A stretch of DNA of 64,000 nucleotides from Thalassovita mediterranea (GTDB lineage: Bacteria > Pseudomonadota > Alphaproteobacteria > Rhodobacterales > Rhodobacteraceae): the NCBI RefSeq assembly GCF_001458435.1, contig NZ_CYSF01000006.1, positions 248,001 through 312,000 of the forward strand. Direction: 5' to 3'. The first letter of the stretch is position 1. Every line of letters begins with the position of its first letter. The translations under genes and the position numbers were made by a program. The notes beneath the pieces are model-generated. The model searched no databases. It was not told the DNA's origin and worked only from the letters and a program-made list of their open reading frames with translations. This document shows, in pieces, positions 2,723-13,511 of this stretch.

Positions 2723-4252
2723 TCAGAATTTGAAACTCATCTGACCTGATGGCGTGGCTTTTTTGCGCGATGACGCGCGGCGGCGTGGTGATGGTTTGCG
2801 GCTTGCGTGTTTGGCCACGATGTTGCCCGCCTCATCGCGAAACCCATCACTACGCCGCACAGCCCAGACCTGATCACGCGCATGACGGGCGGCCTCTTGC
2901 GGGTCGATGATCGGATGGGGATACACTTTCCCCAAAATGGCGGCTGCATTTTCCGCCATCCATGGTTCCTGCAGGTGATGATCCGCAATAGGTGCCAATT
3001 CCGGCAACCAACGACGGGTGAATGCGCCTGTCGGGTCCTGATCCCTACCCTGTTTGACGGGGTTATAAATCCGTATGGTGTTGATCCCGGTTGTTCCGGA
3101 TTGCATCTGCACCTGTGACCAATGGATGCCCGGTTCATAGTCGGTAAAACGTCGTGCCAGAACCAACCCCGGTGCGCGCCAATCCAGCCACAGATGATAG
3201 GCCGCCACCGACATCACCATCGCCCGCATTCTAAAGTTCAGCCACCCCGTCGCCCGCAAACAGCGCATACAAGCGTCTACAAACGGCAAACCTGTTTCCC
3301 CCGCCGCCCAAGCCGCGAGCCGATCTGCATCCGGCGCCGATGGGCGTAGGCCATCATAGGCGCGATGCAGGTTCTGAAATTCGATTTCTGGCGCATCTTC
3401 GAGTTTCTGGATGAAATGACAATGCCAATGCAATCGCCCCACAAAGGAGGTCATGGATTTCGGCCACGATGGATCTGGGCGCGGTTCCATATCAGCCAAT
3501 TGCCGCTGCCGCGCCCAAGTCGCCTGCGCTGCCTCTCGCATCGATAGCGCGCCAAGCGCCAGATGCGGCGACAACCGCGAGCAGGCCTGCGCCCCTTCCA
3601 GCGGCGAAGACATCGCCCAACGATAGGATCGTCCGCGACGTTGAAGGAACGACTGCAACACACCTTCTGCAACACGGCGTCCTGCCGGTTGACGATCCGG
3701 ACACGGATCCGCACGCATGCCGAACTCATGCTGCAAGTCCCTTACACTCGGCAAAGGCCCAGCATCGACGTTCACCGGACCCAACGGCGGTGGCGTGACC
3801 GCCGGCATGGCCATCATTCGATCCCACCCATGCGCCCATCCGCTCCTTGACGACAGCCGCCGCCAAACACCGAACTGCTGCACCTCAGTCCAGCGAATAC
3901 CGTGGTCACGACACCATCGGGCAACACGTCTGTCGCGCTGGTAGGTCCAATCGTTCCCGGTTTCCTCATGCGACCAAAGAGCAGTGAGTTTCCCGTCCCG
4001 CCGGAGCGTTTCCAGCACCTCGACCACATCCCCGATCTGCACCACCAACGGCTGCCCCAACGCGGCAAAGTCGCGGCGCAATTCAGCGAGTGTTTCGACC
4101 GTAAACGCCAGTTGACGCGCCGACGTATCCGGCAACCGCCAGTACTCCCGTTCCAAAACATAAAGCGGCAGAACGTCCCCCTCTGCTGCGGCACGCACCA
4201 AAGCCTGATGATCTTGGACCCTTAGGTCGCGTTTTAGCCAGAGAACCTGCAC
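2723..4252 (-). CDS. deoxyribodipyrimidine photolyase / cryptochrome family protein
   Basis: A 509-residue flavoprotein with the normal photolyase layout. The N-terminal Rossmann antenna domain (about residues 1-165) begins [16 protein letters not shown]; the helical FAD domain (about 200-430) shows [33 protein letters not shown] and [21 protein letters not shown]. The tail (about 470-509) is strongly basic ([14 protein letters not shown]), suggesting DNA contact. Likely repairs UV-induced pyrimidine dimers with blue light; a pure photoreceptor role cannot be excluded. The start is the GTG at 4252, preceded by AAGG; no ATG fits the conserved N-terminus. It is divergent from the second FAD-domain protein at 4441 and followed by the DUF2256 peptide. 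Confidence 0.88.
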
Positions 4253-4384
4253 ACCTTGCCCCAGTTTCTTTGATGTTTCGACGGTATATTGATCATGTTG
4301 AGGGGATTACGAACCATCGGGGCCAGCGGATGAAAATCGTACCATAGAAATAACTTGGGCGCCTTGAACTATCCACGCAACAGG

Positions 4385-4414
4385 TGATCCATGGACCGGG
4401 CGCGTGCGTATCTA
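4385..4414 (+). promoter_or_regulatory. possible RpoE (group IV sigma) promoter
   Basis: TGATCC at 4385-4390 matches the -35 element of RpoE promoters described in Rhodobacter, which respond to singlet oxygen and include a photolyase gene in that regulon. Eighteen bases further, TATCTA at 4409-4414 is only a partial match to the usual -10. Transcription would begin about 20 bases before the ATG at 4441, consistent with that start. Weak on sequence alone. Confidence 0.35.
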
Positions 4415-4440: not shown

Positions 4441-5727
4441 ATGACCGCCCCCACCAAAAATCCCACGCCGACGGTATCCGACACACACCCACCTGCCCTG
4501 CCAGTGGGAACCCGTAATGCCGGATTGCAGGGTTTGACGGAATTTGTCGAACACATGGGAACCGCCTACGCGCAGTCACGGAACTACGATCTGGGTCAGG
4601 GGCAACACCGGCATGTGTCAAAACTGTCCCCCTATCTACGACACCGTCTGTTAAGCGAAGAAGAGGTCGTGCGCGCCGCAATAAACGCCCACGGTCCCGC
4701 AGCCAGCGAGAAGTTTGTGCAAGAGGTGATATGGCGCAGCTATTTCAAGGGCTGGCTGGAACAACGCCCGCAGGTCTGGACGCAGTTTCGCTATGGACTG
4801 GAGCGGGATCTCGACACCGTCGCGTCTGATCCGGCTGTTTCCGCCCGCTTGAAGGCGGCAGAAAATGGGCGCACTGGCCTGCCGTATTTTAATGAATGGA
4901 TCAGAGAGCTGCACACAACCGGCTACCTGCACAATCATGCACGGATGTGGTTTGCCTCTATCTGGATCTTCACTCTCGGGCTGCCTTGGCGATTGGGTGC
5001 GGACCTGTTTTTGCGGCAACTTCTGGATGGGGATGCCGCTTCGAACACATGCAGTTGGCGCTGGGTGGCGGGATTGCATACGCGGGGCAAGACCTATCAA
5101 GCCACAGCGCAGAACATTGCGACCTTTACCAACGGGCGATTTGCCCCTGCAGATGCCGATCTAGCCCAAACCGCCCCCGCCCTTGTGATCGAAGAGCCTG
5201 ATGGCCTACCGCCTCTTGTCCCGCTGCGGCAGGTTGCAGCGCCAAAGGTCAATGTCCCTACTCTATTGCTGGCGACCGCAGATGACTGCCAGCTAGATGC
5301 GCGCAGCTTATCAACACTGAATATCACAGGGGTTGCGCGCCTGCCATCGGCGCACATGCGCTCCCCCCGTGCGGTGGCGGCCCATGTGCGCAGGTTCGAG
5401 GATCAAGCACTAACGGATGCCTGCGCAGATCTTGCCAAATCGCATGAGGTGGCAACAGTCACGACACCGGGTGATCTGGTCAAGATCGCCCAACTGAACG
5501 GGGCGCATCAAATCGTCCATCCATACGCCACCGTAGGTCCATTGCGCGACTGGCTGGACAGCGCACGGCCTACGCTCGATGCGAACAGCCTGCCCCTGTG
5601 TGAATGGCAGCGTGATTGGGATCGCGAAATCTGGCCTTTTTGCACTGCTGGTTTTTTCAAGGTCAAGAAACGCCTCCCACAGCTGCTGCAACAACTGGGC
5701 CTGACCAAAACAGTGGGCGATAACTAG
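4441..5727 (+). CDS. photolyase-like FAD-binding protein with inverted domain order
   Basis: A 428-residue protein that begins with what is normally the C-terminal half of a photolyase: residues about 25-235 form the FAD-binding helical domain, with FVQEVIWRSYFKGW, NHARMWFASIWIFTLGLPWR and DGDAASNTCSWRWVAGLH. The last ~190 residues (240-428) look like an alpha/beta Rossmann-type domain (VNVPTLLLATADD; HEVATVTTPGDL; AHQIVHPYATVGPLRDWLD) ending with FCTAGFFKVKKRLPQ, which resembles the linker that normally follows an antenna domain. This suggests a circularly permuted photolyase (inference). The ATG at 4441 has GAGG seven bases upstream; the GTG at 4384 in frame is less likely. Divergent from the orthodox photolyase. 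Confidence 0.8.
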   Translation: MTAPTKNPTPTVSDTHPPALPVGTRNAGLQGLTEFVEHMGTAYAQSRNYDLGQGQHRHVSKLSPYLRHRLLSEEEVVRAAINAHGPAASEKFVQEVIWRSYFKGWLEQRPQVWTQFRYGLERDLDTVASDPAVSARLKAAENGRTGLPYFNEWIRELHTTGYLHNHARMWFASIWIFTLGLPWRLGADLFLRQLLDGDAASNTCSWRWVAGLHTRGKTYQATAQNIATFTNGRFAPADADLAQTAPALVIEEPDGLPPLVPLRQVAAPKVNVPTLLLATADDCQLDARSLSTLNITGVARLPSAHMRSPRAVAAHVRRFEDQALTDACADLAKSHEVATVTTPGDLVKIAQLNGAHQIVHPYATVGPLRDWLDSARPTLDANSLPLCEWQRDWDREIWPFCTAGFFKVKKRLPQLLQQLGLTKTVGDN

Positions 5728-8320: not shown

Positions 8321-9565
8321 ATGGAATTCCTTAACGTTAGCCATAACACGTTCCTCGTTTTGATGTCCTGCCTCATTGCATTGGTTGCGGGGTTCACCGG
8401 TCTGTCACTGACCCGTTCTCTCGCCAGCAAGCCGATGTTTGAAAAAAAGGCATCAATCGCGCTTGCCTCGGTCGCTTTGGGCGGGGGCATTTGGGCGATG
8501 CATTTTGTTGCGATGCTGGGCCTGCAGATGCCAATCCTGTTTTACTATGATGCGGCAATCACGCTGGTATCCGCACTCACAGCGATCCTGATCGTCGGCG
8601 CCGCTCTGATCCTGTTGCATTTCGTTGAACGCACCCCTTTGACCATCGCACTGGCCGGGGGGATTGTGGGCCTTGGCATTTTGACCATGCACTATATCGG
8701 CATGGCCGGTCTGGAACTATGCCGCGCGGTCTACACGCCGTTTGGCGTTGTGCTGTCGTCCTTGGTGGCGATTGTTCTATGCGTTCTGGCCTTTGGCGTT
8801 GCCTATGGTCAGCGCACCAACCGCCATATCCTGCTGGGTACACTGTGTTTTGCGGCAGCAGTCACCGCGGTGCATTTTCTGGCGATGCTGGGAACCGAAT
8901 TTGTCGCTGTGCCCAGTGGTCCAGAATTTGGCCCACTGATGAGCAACGAAACACTCGCCCTTGGGGTGATTGTCTTCAGCTTCATCATGTTCGGCGCCTG
9001 TTTGTGGGTCAGTATAACCTACTTGCCCGGTCCGGAAACACCTGCCGCGGACACCAGCGATGCAACAGCCAACAGCGCAGAACCTTCAGATCCGATCAAA
9101 ACCCCACCAACCCCAAACGCTCCGCTGGCCAGCGCACAATCGTCAAAGCCCGCCGCTGGGCAGGCAGCGCCCCATACACGAACAGTGATCGCTACAAACG
9201 ACAGCCTACCCTTTCTACAAATCCCGTGCGAACGCGACGGCGGCAAAGTGTTTATAGCCGCGCGTGACGTTTTGTTTGTGCGGGCAGATGGCCATTACAC
9301 GCAGGTTTACACAGAACAAGATCGCCTGTTCTGCGCCTGGTCTGTAACCGAAGCCGCGAAACGGCTGCTGCCTGAAGGTTTTTTGCAAACGCATCGCAGC
9401 TATTTGGTCAATCCTCAGCATGTGGCCCGATTTGAACGCACCAAAGATAAGGGCACATGCTTGTTTGATGCCGAAGGTGTACCTCCGGCCCCTGTCAGTC
9501 GTTCCAAACTCAAGGCCACGCAGGATGCGCTTGCCGCGCAGGTTGGCGCACTTCGTGCTGACTAA
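8321..9565 (+). CDS. MHYT-domain sensor with LytTR DNA-binding domain (CoxC/CoxH-like)
   Basis: A 414-residue membrane regulator. The N-terminal half has about seven membrane helices with MHYT-type motifs (WAMHFVAMLGL, LTMHYIGMAGL, AVHFLAMLGT), proposed to bind a metal and sense O2, CO or NO. A Pro/Ala/Ser-rich linker (about residues 245-295) leads to a C-terminal LytTR DNA-binding domain (VLFVRADGHYTQVYT; FLQTHRSYLVNP). This is the architecture of CoxC and CoxH of Oligotropha carboxidovorans. It lies 111 bp upstream of coxM on the same strand, so it is probably the CO-responsive regulator of the cox operon. Confidence 0.85.
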   Translation: MEFLNVSHNTFLVLMSCLIALVAGFTGLSLTRSLASKPMFEKKASIALASVALGGGIWAMHFVAMLGLQMPILFYYDAAITLVSALTAILIVGAALILLHFVERTPLTIALAGGIVGLGILTMHYIGMAGLELCRAVYTPFGVVLSSLVAIVLCVLAFGVAYGQRTNRHILLGTLCFAAAVTAVHFLAMLGTEFVAVPSGPEFGPLMSNETLALGVIVFSFIMFGACLWVSITYLPGPETPAADTSDATANSAEPSDPIKTPPTPNAPLASAQSSKPAAGQAAPHTRTVIATNDSLPFLQIPCERDGGKVFIAARDVLFVRADGHYTQVYTEQDRLFCAWSVTEAAKRLLPEGFLQTHRSYLVNPQHVARFERTKDKGTCLFDAEGVPPAPVSRSKLKATQDALAAQVGALRAD

Positions 9566-9676
9566 GGCGCATTTCGTGCAAAACTGTTGTTTTTCATTGA
9601 TTTTCTAAAGCGCTAACACGCGCCTTCCGGCCACGCTCTTCCCAGCCAGAACATTTGCTTGAAGGGAGGAGAGCCG

Positions 9677-10531
9677 ATGATTCCAGCGGCATTTGAATAC
9701 TACAGACCCAAGGATATGGACGGCGTCCTGTCCATCCTAGCCGAACATGGCGATGATGCGCGCGTGATGGCCGGTGGCCACAGCCTGATCCCGATGATGA
9801 AGCTACGCATGGCGGACGTCCCGCACTTGATCGACTTGCAAGACGTCGCAGGCCTGTCCGGGATTGAGGTCGACGGCGGCCAGATCCGGATTGGCGCGAT
9901 GGTTACCCAGCATGACATTATCGATCACGCTGATCTAACCGCAGCAGCGCCCATCCTGCGCGAGGCGGCCCTGCAAATCGCTGACCCACAGGTGCGCTAC
10001 ATGGGCACCGTCGGCGGCAACGTCGCCAATGGTGATCCCGGTAACGACATGCCTGGATTGATGCAGTGCCTAGATGCGCAGTTCACTGTTGTCGGCACTG
10101 ATGGCGAACGCACGATTGCGGCGCGCGACTTCTACGAAGCGGCCTACATGACCGCCCGCGAAGACGAAGAAGTGCTGACATCCGTGACGTTTGCAGCCCC
10201 CAAGGGCGGCTACGCCTATGAAAAGCAAAAGCGCAAAATTGGCGACTATGCCACCGCCGCAGCGGCGGTGCAGATCGTCCGCGACGGCGACATCTGCACT
10301 GAGGCCTCCATCGCGATGACCAACCTTAGCGACACCCCTATCTATTCCGAAGCAGCCGGCGCGGCGCTGATCGGCACCATGGTAGATGCGGCGGCGTTAA
10401 CTGCAGCGGTCAACGCCATGCTGGGTGATATCGACCCAACCGAGGACAACCGCGGCCCCATCGCGTTCAAGAAACATGTGGCTGGCGTGATCCTGCGCCG
10501 CGCCATCGAACGTGCTTGGTCGCGCGCCTGA
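9677..10531 (+). CDS. coxM: aerobic CO dehydrogenase medium (FAD) subunit
   Basis: A 284-residue FAD subunit of the xanthine oxidase family. FAD-binding motifs are [14 protein letters not shown] near the N-terminus and [15 protein letters not shown] in the middle. It accepts electrons from the CoxS iron-sulfur subunit and passes them to the quinone pool. The ATG at 9677 follows a strong GGGAGGA ribosome site; the upstream in-frame start at 9659 would overlap that site. First gene of coxMSLDEF-G; the M-S-L order is the hallmark of form I CODH operons, as opposed to the S-L-M order of form II. Confidence 0.93.
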
Positions 10532-10584
10532 TCAAATCACCGGCCGACCCGCCACACGGAGTCCGTCGGCAGAGAGGAAATCCA

Positions 10585-11079
10585 ATGTCCAACAAACAAC
10601 ACTACAAATTGACCGTGAACGGCAAACAGGAAGAGTTTCTGGCGGAGCCGCGCGAGTTGTTGATCTATACCTTGCGCGAACGTCTGAATATCACCGGTCC
10701 GCACATCGGTTGTGAAACCTCCCATTGTGGTGCCTGTACCGTGACCATTGACGGGAAATCAGTCAAAGCCTGCACCATGTTCGTGGCTCAGGCCGATGGC
10801 AAAGACATCACCACCATCGAAGGTATCGGCAACCCTGACGCGCTGCATCCGCTGCAAACCGCGTTCAAGGAACACCACGGTCTGCAATGTGGGTACTGTA
10901 CCCCCGGCATGATCACCCGCGCGACCAAGCTCCTCGAAGAGAACCCGACCCCCACCGAAGAAGACATCCGGTTTGGCATGGCGGGCAATATCTGCCGCTG
11001 CACCGGCTATCAGAACATCGTGAAATCCATTCAGGCCGCCGCGGCGGAAATGAATGCAGCCAAGGAGGCGGCAGAATGA
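10585..11079 (+). CDS. coxS: aerobic CO dehydrogenase small (2x[2Fe-2S]) subunit
   Basis: A 164-residue iron-sulfur subunit. The N-terminal plant-type ferredoxin domain holds [12 protein letters not shown] with a fourth Cys in VKACTMF; the C-terminal helical domain holds CGYCTPGMI and ICRCTGYQN. Together these bind two [2Fe-2S] clusters that carry electrons from the Mo-Cu site of CoxL to the FAD of CoxM. The start at 10585 follows AGAGGAAA. The stop overlaps the coxL start in ATGA, so the two are translationally coupled. Confidence 0.95.
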
Positions 11080-13511
11080 AAGACGACGTAACCAGCCGCG
11101 AAGAACGTGTCGAAAACCTCAAAGGCATGGGGTGTTCGCGCAAGCGGGTTGAAGATGCCCGTTTCACCCAGGGCAAAGGCAACTATGTCGATGACATCAA
11201 ACTGGATGGGATGCTGTTTGGCGACTTTGTCCGTTCGCCTTACGCCCATGCACGGATCAAAAACATCGACACCTCTGCCGCGCTTGAAGTTCCCGGCGTT
11301 CTGGCTGTCTTGACGGCCAAAGATCTGGAACCGCTGGGACTGCACTGGATGCCAACATTGGCCGGGGACAAACAGATGGTTCTGGCCGATGGCAAGGTCC
11401 TGTTCCAAGGACAAGAAGTTGCCTTCGTCGTTGCCGAAGACCGCTATGCTGCGGCCGACGGGATCGAAGCCGTCGAAGTAGACTATGAAGAACTGCCGGT
11501 CATCGTCGACCCGTTTGAAGCGCTGACATCAGATGTTGTCCTGCGCGAAGATCTGGTCGCAGAGGATGGATCGCTGCCCGATGGGGCGCATGGACCACGC
11601 AAACACCACAACCATATCTTCACCTGGGAAGCAGGGGATAAGGATCCGACCTTTGACACGATCGACGCAGCTGAGGTCGTCGCAGAGGAAACGATGTATT
11701 ATCATCGTACCCACCCTTGTCCGCTGGAAACCTGTGGGTCTGTTGCCTCCATGGATAAGGTCAACGGCAAGCTGACCCTCTGGGGCACATTTCAGGCCCC
11801 CCATGCCATTCGAACGGTTGTATCACTGATCTCGGGGATCGAAGAACACAACATCCGCGTCATCAGCCCAGACATCGGGGGCGGCTTTGGCAACAAAGTA
11901 GGCGCCTACCCGGGATATGTCTGCACTGTTGTGGCCTCCATCGTGACCGGAAAACCGGTGAAATGGATCGAAGACCGGATGGACAACCTGATGACCACCG
12001 CCTTTGCCCGCGACTACTGGATGAAAGGCCGCATCAGCGCCACCAAAGACGGCAAGATCACTGGTCTGCATTGCCACGTCACCGCAGATCATGGCGGGTT
12101 TGACGCCTGTGCGGATCCGACCAAGTTTCCCGCTGGGTTTATGAATATCTGTACCGGCTCCTACGACATTCCCACCGCCTATCTGGAAGTGGACGGCGTC
12201 TACACCAACAAGGCACCGGGTGGGGTCAGTTACCGCTGTTCATTCCGCGTGACAGAAGCGGTCTATTTCATCGAACGCATGATCGAAGTGCTGGCGATCG
12301 AATTGAATATGGACGCCGCCGAGCTGCGCCGGATCAACTTTATCCGGAAGGAACAGTTCCCCTACACCGCTGCGTTGGGATGGGAATATGACAGCGGCGA
12401 CTACCATACCGCCTGGGACAAGGCGCTCTCCACTGTTGACTACGATGGATTGCGTGCGGAACAAGCCGAGCGTGTGGAGGCCTTTAAGCGTGGTGAAACC
12501 CGATCACTGATGGGGATTGGTCTGTCGTTCTTTACCGAAATCGTCGGGGCAGGCCCCGTGAAAAACTGTGATATTCTGGGCCTTGGCATGTTTGACAGCT
12601 GCGAAATCCGCATCCACCCCACCGGATCGGCCATCGCGCGCCTCGGCACCATTTCACAAGGTCAGGGGCACGCAACCACATTTGCACAGATCCTTGCCTC
12701 GGAAATCGGCCTACCGGCAGACAGTATCACCATCGAAGAAGGCGACACCGACACAGCGCCTTATGGGCTGGGCACCTACGGGTCACGTTCGACCCCGGTG
12801 GCGGGCGCGGCAACAGCGATGGCCGGTCGTAAAATCCGTGCCAAAGCGCAGATGATCGCGGCCTATCTACTGGAAGTGCATGACGACGACGTCGAGTTTG
12901 ACGTGGATCGATTTGTCGTCAAAGGCGCGCCAGAGCGGTTCAAGACAATGAAGGAAATCGCCTTTGCCGCCTACAATCAGGCCATTCCGGGAATAGAACC
13001 GGGGCTGGAAGCTGTCAGTTACTATGACCCGCCCAATATGACCTATCCCTTCGGCGCCTACGTCTGTGTGATGGACATTGACGTGGATACAGGTGTCACC
13101 GACATCCGCCGCTTCTACGCGCTGGATGATTGCGGCACCCGGATCAACCCGATGATCATCGAAGGACAGGTGCATGGTGGCCTGACCGAAGCGCTGGCCG
13201 TCGCACTGGGACAGGAAATTGCCTATGACGACATGGGCAACGTCAAGACCGGCACGCTTATGGACTTTTTCCTGCCTACCGCGTGGGAGGTGCCAAACTA
13301 CGAAACCGACTACACAGTCACCCCGAGCCCCCATCATCCGATCGGCGCCAAGGGTGTGGGCGAAAGCCCCCATGTCGGCGGCGTGCCCTGTTTTTCCAAT
13401 GCGGTTCAGGATGCATTCCGTGCATTTGGCCTGCGGCACACCAACATGCCCCACGATCATTGGCGGATCTGGAAAACCGCGAATGAACTGGGTCTGCATG
13501 ACATGAGCTGA
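11076..13511 (+). CDS. coxL: aerobic CO dehydrogenase large (Mo-Cu) subunit, form I
   Basis: An 811-residue molybdenum hydroxylase subunit that oxidises CO to CO2. From the ATG at 11076 the active-site loop reads SYRCSFR at residues 385-391, putting the Cu-binding Cys at 388 and the catalytic Glu of GVGES at 763, the same numbers as in Oligotropha carboxidovorans CoxL. This marks form I (AYXCSFR) rather than form II (AYRGAGR), although the first loop residue is Ser instead of Ala. Other conserved parts are [11 protein letters not shown] and [11 protein letters not shown]. Needs molybdopterin cytosine dinucleotide and the CoxDEF maturation proteins that follow. The ATG overlaps the coxS stop and has AAGGAGG upstream. 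Confidence 0.95.

Follow-up and report, generated by a model that had tools for sequence, protein, structure and literature searches.

In textbook photolyases and cryptochromes, an alpha/beta antenna domain precedes the helical FAD domain. The gene at positions 4441–5727 (+) of the window, here the whole stretch of 64,000 nucleotides that was analysed, raises the question of whether its product, P0001, carries these domains in the opposite order, and, if so, what kind of protein it is and how the order arose. The reading frame is open from an ATG at 4441 to a stop codon ending at 5727 and encodes 428 residues, while a GTG at 4384 provides an alternative upstream start that would give 447 residues. 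Pfam FAD_binding_7 (PF03441) matches residues 92–220 (85.3 bits, E 4.9e-24) over model positions 1–127 of 203, and the best PDB photolyase match found by phmmer covers residues 21–219. With the mapping of residues to E. coli photolyase and their conservation over 114 sequences, these matches define a FAD domain at residues 25–235 (4513–5145, +), whose phosphate loop, read by eye from the alignment, is V-S-x-L-S instead of T-S-x-L-S. The same Pfam search gave no match above cut-off in the C-terminal half of P0001 and no N-terminal antenna domain (PF00875). The source genome encodes three FAD_binding_7 proteins and has two PF00875 matches, both in the other two photolyase genes, so that P0001 is the only one of the three with no antenna match.

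The AlphaFold2 model of the whole protein, built on 79 aligned sequences, is confident (pLDDT 94.9, pTM 0.91), with helices to about residue 229 followed by an alpha/beta domain at residues 273–418 (5257–5694, +). Its strands lie at residues 273–279, 294–301, 337–339, 357–361, and 386–389, and no extra tail or output domain is seen. Residues 268–428 modelled alone on 82 sequences gave a pLDDT of 93.9. The full-length alignment (A1) consists of P0001 and 78 relatives from 80 loci, L070 and L077 having been dropped as cut by contig ends; the C-domain alignment (A2) consists of P0001 and 81 relatives, after the removal of 8 of 113 at 85% or higher C-domain identity and then, by choice, of 24 of the remaining 105. 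The domain order proposed by the earlier sequence-only reading, FAD domain first and alpha/beta domain second, is borne out by Pfam, the PDB matches, and the model, and the reversal relative to textbook enzymes is well supported.

The nature of the second domain was approached through both structure and sequence. In a Foldseek search with this domain alone, a class II CPD photolyase came out on top at a modest E-value of 6.3e-4, a value also reached by the unrelated enzyme TcdA. Among the best 50 of 1,711 matches, 17 were photolyases or cryptochromes with TM-scores by query of 0.51–0.61, and the remaining 33 stayed at or below 0.48. The whole model also retrieved photolyases, with TM-scores by query of 0.30–0.41 among the matches listed, such low values as would be expected with a different domain order. 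Comparison by hhalign of the 82 C-domains with 33 antenna-first proteins (28 class I-like and five resembling P0002, the product of the neighbouring gene) gave a score of 32.7 and an E-value of 1.4e-4, in register over most of the domain; the controls, 11 column shuffles and a reversed copy, did not score above 16.4. Removing the five P0002-like rows lowered the score to 24.0 (E 0.0043). The antenna-first set had been assembled from 41 loci, nine of which failed a motif filter, leaving 32 to which P0002 was added; L123 was left out. Ten sequences, seven from stand-alone antenna ORFs and three from the C-domains of Deinococcus proteins with both parts fused, were combined into a bridging alignment. 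This alignment matched the antenna-first domains at E 9.3e-11 and the C-domains of the P0001 class at E 1.3e-5, over about 130 columns each, with a best E of 0.018 in six shuffles; these E-values, like that of the direct hhalign match, refer to single comparisons.

The segment FCTAGFFKVKKRL (residues 400–412; 5638–5676, +) had been likened to the end of an antenna domain, a likeness upheld by its conservation in the family as WPHATAGFFKVKKxIP and by the placement in hhalign of the family GFFKVKK onto the PYKVFT segment near the antenna-domain end of antenna-first photolyases. Other searches were negative or equivocal. A Pfam scan of the 82 C-domains was not convincing (PF00875 in 4 of 82, best E 0.0097, and an unrelated family in 5 of 82), the A2 profile found no photolyase among PDB sequences, and it missed the antenna ORFs of four two-gene loci. 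Within their first 45 residues, 9 of the 82 C-domains carry the DLR motif. Taken together, the models, Foldseek, hhalign, and the bridging alignment, which address the possibility that the C-terminal part might not be antenna-like, indicate that the second domain is of the antenna type.

The reversed order is not without precedent. PMC9426592, PMC13274461, PMC12083526, and PMC8948257 describe between them the NewPHLs, photolyases of inverted topology that repair cyclobutane pyrimidine dimers (CPDs) in single-stranded DNA, with characterised members from Dinoroseobacter shibae and M. mesophilicum; PMC8948257 describes a Trp dyad for the D. shibae enzyme. This reversed class has been in print since 2020 (Emmerich et al., gkaa1147), and P0001 is a further, rather divergent member. 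A literature search on circularly permuted photolyases had returned nothing relevant, the class having been printed under other words. Emmerich et al. 2020 reportedly found that NewPHL lacks an antenna chromophore and that its C-terminal domain shields the FAD.

Of the three PF03441 proteins in the D. shibae genome, one is FAD-first (L114:4884–6101), and as the sole such protein it was taken, by elimination, to be the published NewPHL (A8LJA9). Over 404 positions, P0001 shares 45% identity with this protein; the figure is 55% for the FAD part and 34% for the C-domain. A phylogeny of homologues, as the sequence-only reading had suggested, places P0001 among the NewPHLs. In a tree of 78 FAD domains (unrooted, with a bootstrap not quite settled, and using 30 of 114 inverted proteins), FAD-first and two-gene proteins fall together on one side (43 rows, 100/100), and P0001 and the D. 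shibae protein lie inside the same 30-row clade (100/100). That tree leaves the FAD-first subclades unresolved. A tree of 114 full-length proteins, with SH-aLRT support only, assigns P0001, on a long branch, to an 85-row subclade (support 99) from which the D. shibae protein is absent; the repeats L130, L131, and L133 were dropped from the trees. Because P0001 belongs to another subclade, sits on a long branch, and has a C-domain only 34% identical, details such as the single-strand preference might differ from those of the D. shibae protein.

Of 295 genomes from the family to which the window belongs, 101 encode a FAD-first protein (E ≤ 1e-30). At least 590 relatives were found in a scan of genome contigs, and the 80 listed are mostly from alphaproteobacteria, with some from gammaproteobacteria and one from a Burkholderiaceae bin. 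Three genomes (G294, G526, and G523) hold two FAD-first proteins apiece. In another genome of the window's own genus (G363, C9:603322–605927), an inverted photolyase of a different subclade lies 23 nt from a P0002-like gene; the window's copy may have been replaced by transfer.

The relation of P0001 to known systems can be stated domain by domain. The NewPHLs of D. shibae (A8LJA9) and M. mesophilicum (M7YZC8) share with it the FAD domain in first place, a C-terminal second domain, the Trp dyad, and an alphaproteobacterial origin, whereas P0001 differs from the D. shibae enzyme in its subclade. Class I CPD photolyases (E. coli 1DNP, Thermus 1IQR) share the FAD fold, the CPD-site residues, and an antenna-type domain, but have the opposite domain order and three tryptophans where P0001 has two. 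The short photolyase-like proteins (SPL), which Xu et al. 2021 reportedly described as having no N-terminal alpha/beta domain, resemble P0001 in that absence; unlike antenna-less SPL, P0001 carries an alpha/beta domain at its C-terminus (273–418). PMC13274461 places NewPHL and SPL in one group. As described in PMC9426592, the picocyanobacterial Phr4/Phr5 (two genes) and Phr6 (fused) also have the FAD part first and a photolyase-type domain second, as P0001 does, and they hold four cysteines for an Fe-S cluster. P0001 is without these, C204 being the only cysteine in its FAD part, at a position occupied by Cys in 6 of 114 family sequences.

The catalytic residues of a CPD photolyase are conserved in P0001. 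We take the roles assigned in E. coli photolyase (CPD site, FAD N5, Trp triad) to apply to the corresponding positions. E. coli E274, W277, N341, M345, W384, N378, and D372 align with E95, W98, N165, M169, W208, N202, and D196, each conserved in 112–114 of the 114 family sequences. The predicted CPD site would be formed by E95, W98, N165, M169, and W208, and N202 would be the FAD N5 residue. The first two tryptophans of the triad, W382 and W359, correspond to W206 and W183, present in 114 of 114; the third, W306, corresponds to V127, at a position that is Leu in 77 and Val in 15 of the 114. By this alignment P0001 has a Trp dyad rather than a triad.

On these grounds, P0001 is very probably a NewPHL photolyase that would use blue or near-UV light to split CPDs, most likely in single-stranded DNA. 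Its FAD would be photoreduced via the tryptophan pair W206–W183, and excited FADH− would donate an electron to a dimer bound by E95, W98, N165, M169, and W208; the dimer would then split and the electron return. The antenna-type domain, in which the DLR antenna signature is largely gone, lies behind the FAD domain; it would probably cover the FAD pocket, and it may carry no antenna pigment. The substrate, the single-strand preference, the absence of pigment, and the capping role are features that we infer for P0001.

Other readings of the same evidence were weighed against this one. P0001 could belong to a sub-class separate from the characterised NewPHLs, one that acts on a different substrate or binds an antenna pigment. 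Its place in a subclade apart from the D. shibae protein, the uneven identity between the two domains, the genomes with two FAD-first proteins each, and the presence of both subclades in some genomes, which would make sense if work were divided, all fit this proposal. The catalytic and dyad residues examined are nevertheless common to P0001 and the D. shibae protein, and the subclades do not separate in the FAD-domain tree, so that a separate sub-class seems unlikely. Still less probable is that P0001 is a light receptor of the cryptochrome kind, perhaps signalling together with its divergent neighbour P0002. This reading would explain why P0002-like genes co-occur with the inverted gene and at times adjoin it, and why P0002 has lost CPD-site residues, but those examined in P0001, including W208 and M169, are kept, the model has no added tail or output domain, and the published relatives work in DNA repair according to PMC9426592 and PMC13274461.

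A different kind of objection is that the protein independently gained an unrelated domain of Rossmann-like or HUP type at its C-terminus, in which case there would be no reversal of homologous domains. Nucleotidyltransferases and other enzymes do appear in the Foldseek list, one of them tying the best photolyase in E-value, and the Pfam antenna match is unconvincing. Against this, the highest TM-scores among the matches listed belong to photolyases, and the profile matches run in register through most of the domain, both directly and via the bridging alignment; independent acquisition is accordingly regarded as very improbable. The reading of P0001 as a NewPHL photolyase, with an antenna-type domain at its C-terminus, is retained.

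The antenna-first homologue P0002 is encoded at 2723–4252 (−), divergently transcribed and 188 nt from the P0001 gene, with matches to both PF00875 and PF03441. It had been described as an orthodox photolyase; its domain order is ordinary, yet catalytic residues are replaced: the catalytic Glu is Arg, the Met is Ala, and the region around the DGD motif is without its usual Trp and Asn. The P0002 group stands separate in the tree of 78 FAD domains (7 rows, 100/100). Identification of P0002 as a bifunctional photolyase of the PhrSph98 type was rejected on the loss of Glu and Met: according to PMC9649867, E310 and N384 are retained in the proposed PhrSph98 homologues, and M388 in nearly all of them.

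P0002-like genes are present in 74 of the 101 family genomes with an inverted protein and in 31 of the 194 without one. Class I photolyase, taken as a control, likewise co-occurs with the inverted protein (98 of 101 vs 151 of 194), which weakens co-occurrence as proof of joint action. The P0002-like link persists within genomes that have class I photolyase (71 of 98 vs 27 of 151), in counts that ignore lineage effects. Of the 74 genomes with both genes, 8, among them that of the window, have the two within 255 nt of each other, against 0.01 expected; the genes share a contig in 24 of the 74 (picked by eye) and are on different contigs in the other 50, where adjacency may be hidden. A P0002-like gene lies near 7 of the 80 listed loci of inverted relatives (of at least 590), and on two Persicobacter plasmids (Bacteroidota; L183, L184) a P0002-like gene follows the inverted gene on the same strand and overlaps it. 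The suggestion that the two proteins may act together gains comparative support from co-occurrence and linkage, and a shared role is plausible.

ORF clustering around the 80 listed loci revealed no general neighbour that could be a conserved operon partner, the largest groups reaching 8 of 80. Within the window, at 4385–4413, beginning 56 nt before the P0001 start codon, there is a TGATCC followed 17 nt later by GTATCT, an arrangement that we take to resemble promoters of singlet-oxygen sigma factors. TGATCC stands 34–56 nt before the start in P0001, L040, L052, and the D. shibae gene. Regulation by such a factor was rejected as a family trait: TGATCC lies upstream of 12 of 116 genes, which does not significantly exceed the counts in shuffled sequence (mean 5.1, maximum 13). 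Further along, by reading only, the product of 8321–9565 (+) is a membrane protein whose repeats resemble MHYT and whose C-terminal part resembles LytTR; it may be a DNA-binding sensor of gas or redox state. Also by reading only, 9659–13511 (+) holds three genes resembling the medium, small, and large subunits of a molybdenum enzyme of the CO dehydrogenase/xanthine dehydrogenase type.

How the reversed order arose is illuminated by relatives in which the two domains are encoded separately. At L168–L173, L175, and L178, a FAD-only ORF stands directly before a distinct antenna-domain ORF, in most cases with an overlap of 4–8 nt; this adjacency holds in 8 of 8 intact cases examined (seven alphaproteobacteria and one Deinococcus). 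Intact FAD-only ORFs of 244–303 aa, chosen by short open frames, occur in six alphaproteobacterial genomes, the candidates G036 and G137 having been set aside as cut at contig ends. In all six an antenna-like ORF comes next on the same strand (131–153 aa in five; about 150 aa from an internal start in L172), with an overlap of 4–8 nt in five pairs and a gap of 14 nt in one. The antenna-first profile matched three of the six downstream ORFs with E-values no higher than 1.2e-4 and gave nothing at 0.01 for the remaining three; a profile built without L170–L172 matched the antenna ORFs of these loci at 1.6e-31, 2.7e-13, and 5.3e-11. In a seventh genome (G028, L178), the profile built without L170–L172 matched an antenna-like stretch at 1.7e-31 directly downstream of the FAD part; the longest FAD ORF there includes a long, probably untranslated leader, and its FAD-only status is our reading. 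Deinococcus sp. QL22 has the same gene pair, with the antenna annotated as a "hypothetical protein", and three other Deinococcus plasmids have both parts fused in one gene, FAD first. A tblastn search of 72,556 plasmids with one antenna ORF (E ≤ 0.01) retrieved only these four Deinococcus records. Within the partial literature coverage obtained, no published two-gene precedent was found outside the picocyanobacterial phr4/phr5 (PMC9426592).

Circular permutation had been proposed for P0001. The reversed order itself stands, and permutation in the strict sense does not follow from it: fission and fusion offer an equally good route, because the two-gene relatives have a FAD gene followed by an antenna gene. 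We give slightly better than even credence to a joint reading in which the FAD-first photolyases, two-gene enzymes included, would form one ancient clade, represented in Alphaproteobacteria, Deinococcota, and Bacteroidota by sequence and in Cyanobacteria from print only. In its two-gene form a FAD-domain gene precedes a separate antenna-domain gene, their ends usually overlapping; the fused reversed enzymes would have come from fusing such pairs, and some short photolyases would be half-enzymes whose antenna is annotated as a hypothetical protein.

In the SPL literature, short photolyases are treated as a class, and one paper states that the N-terminal domain is absent; they have been put forward as antenna-less ancestors. 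The eight FAD-only ORFs suggest that some "short, antenna-less" photolyases may be half of a pair. What deserves to be followed further is the two-gene form, together with the way P0002-like proteins pair with the inverted one. Repeated pairing with a catalytically altered photolyase homologue supplies a testable lead on what the P0002-like homologue does, and the two-gene form touches the open question of whether the first photolyases lacked an antenna domain. Should FAD-only genes regularly adjoin an antenna gene, the case for short photolyases as the ancestral form would be weaker, and the reversed order would be easily explained by gene fusion.
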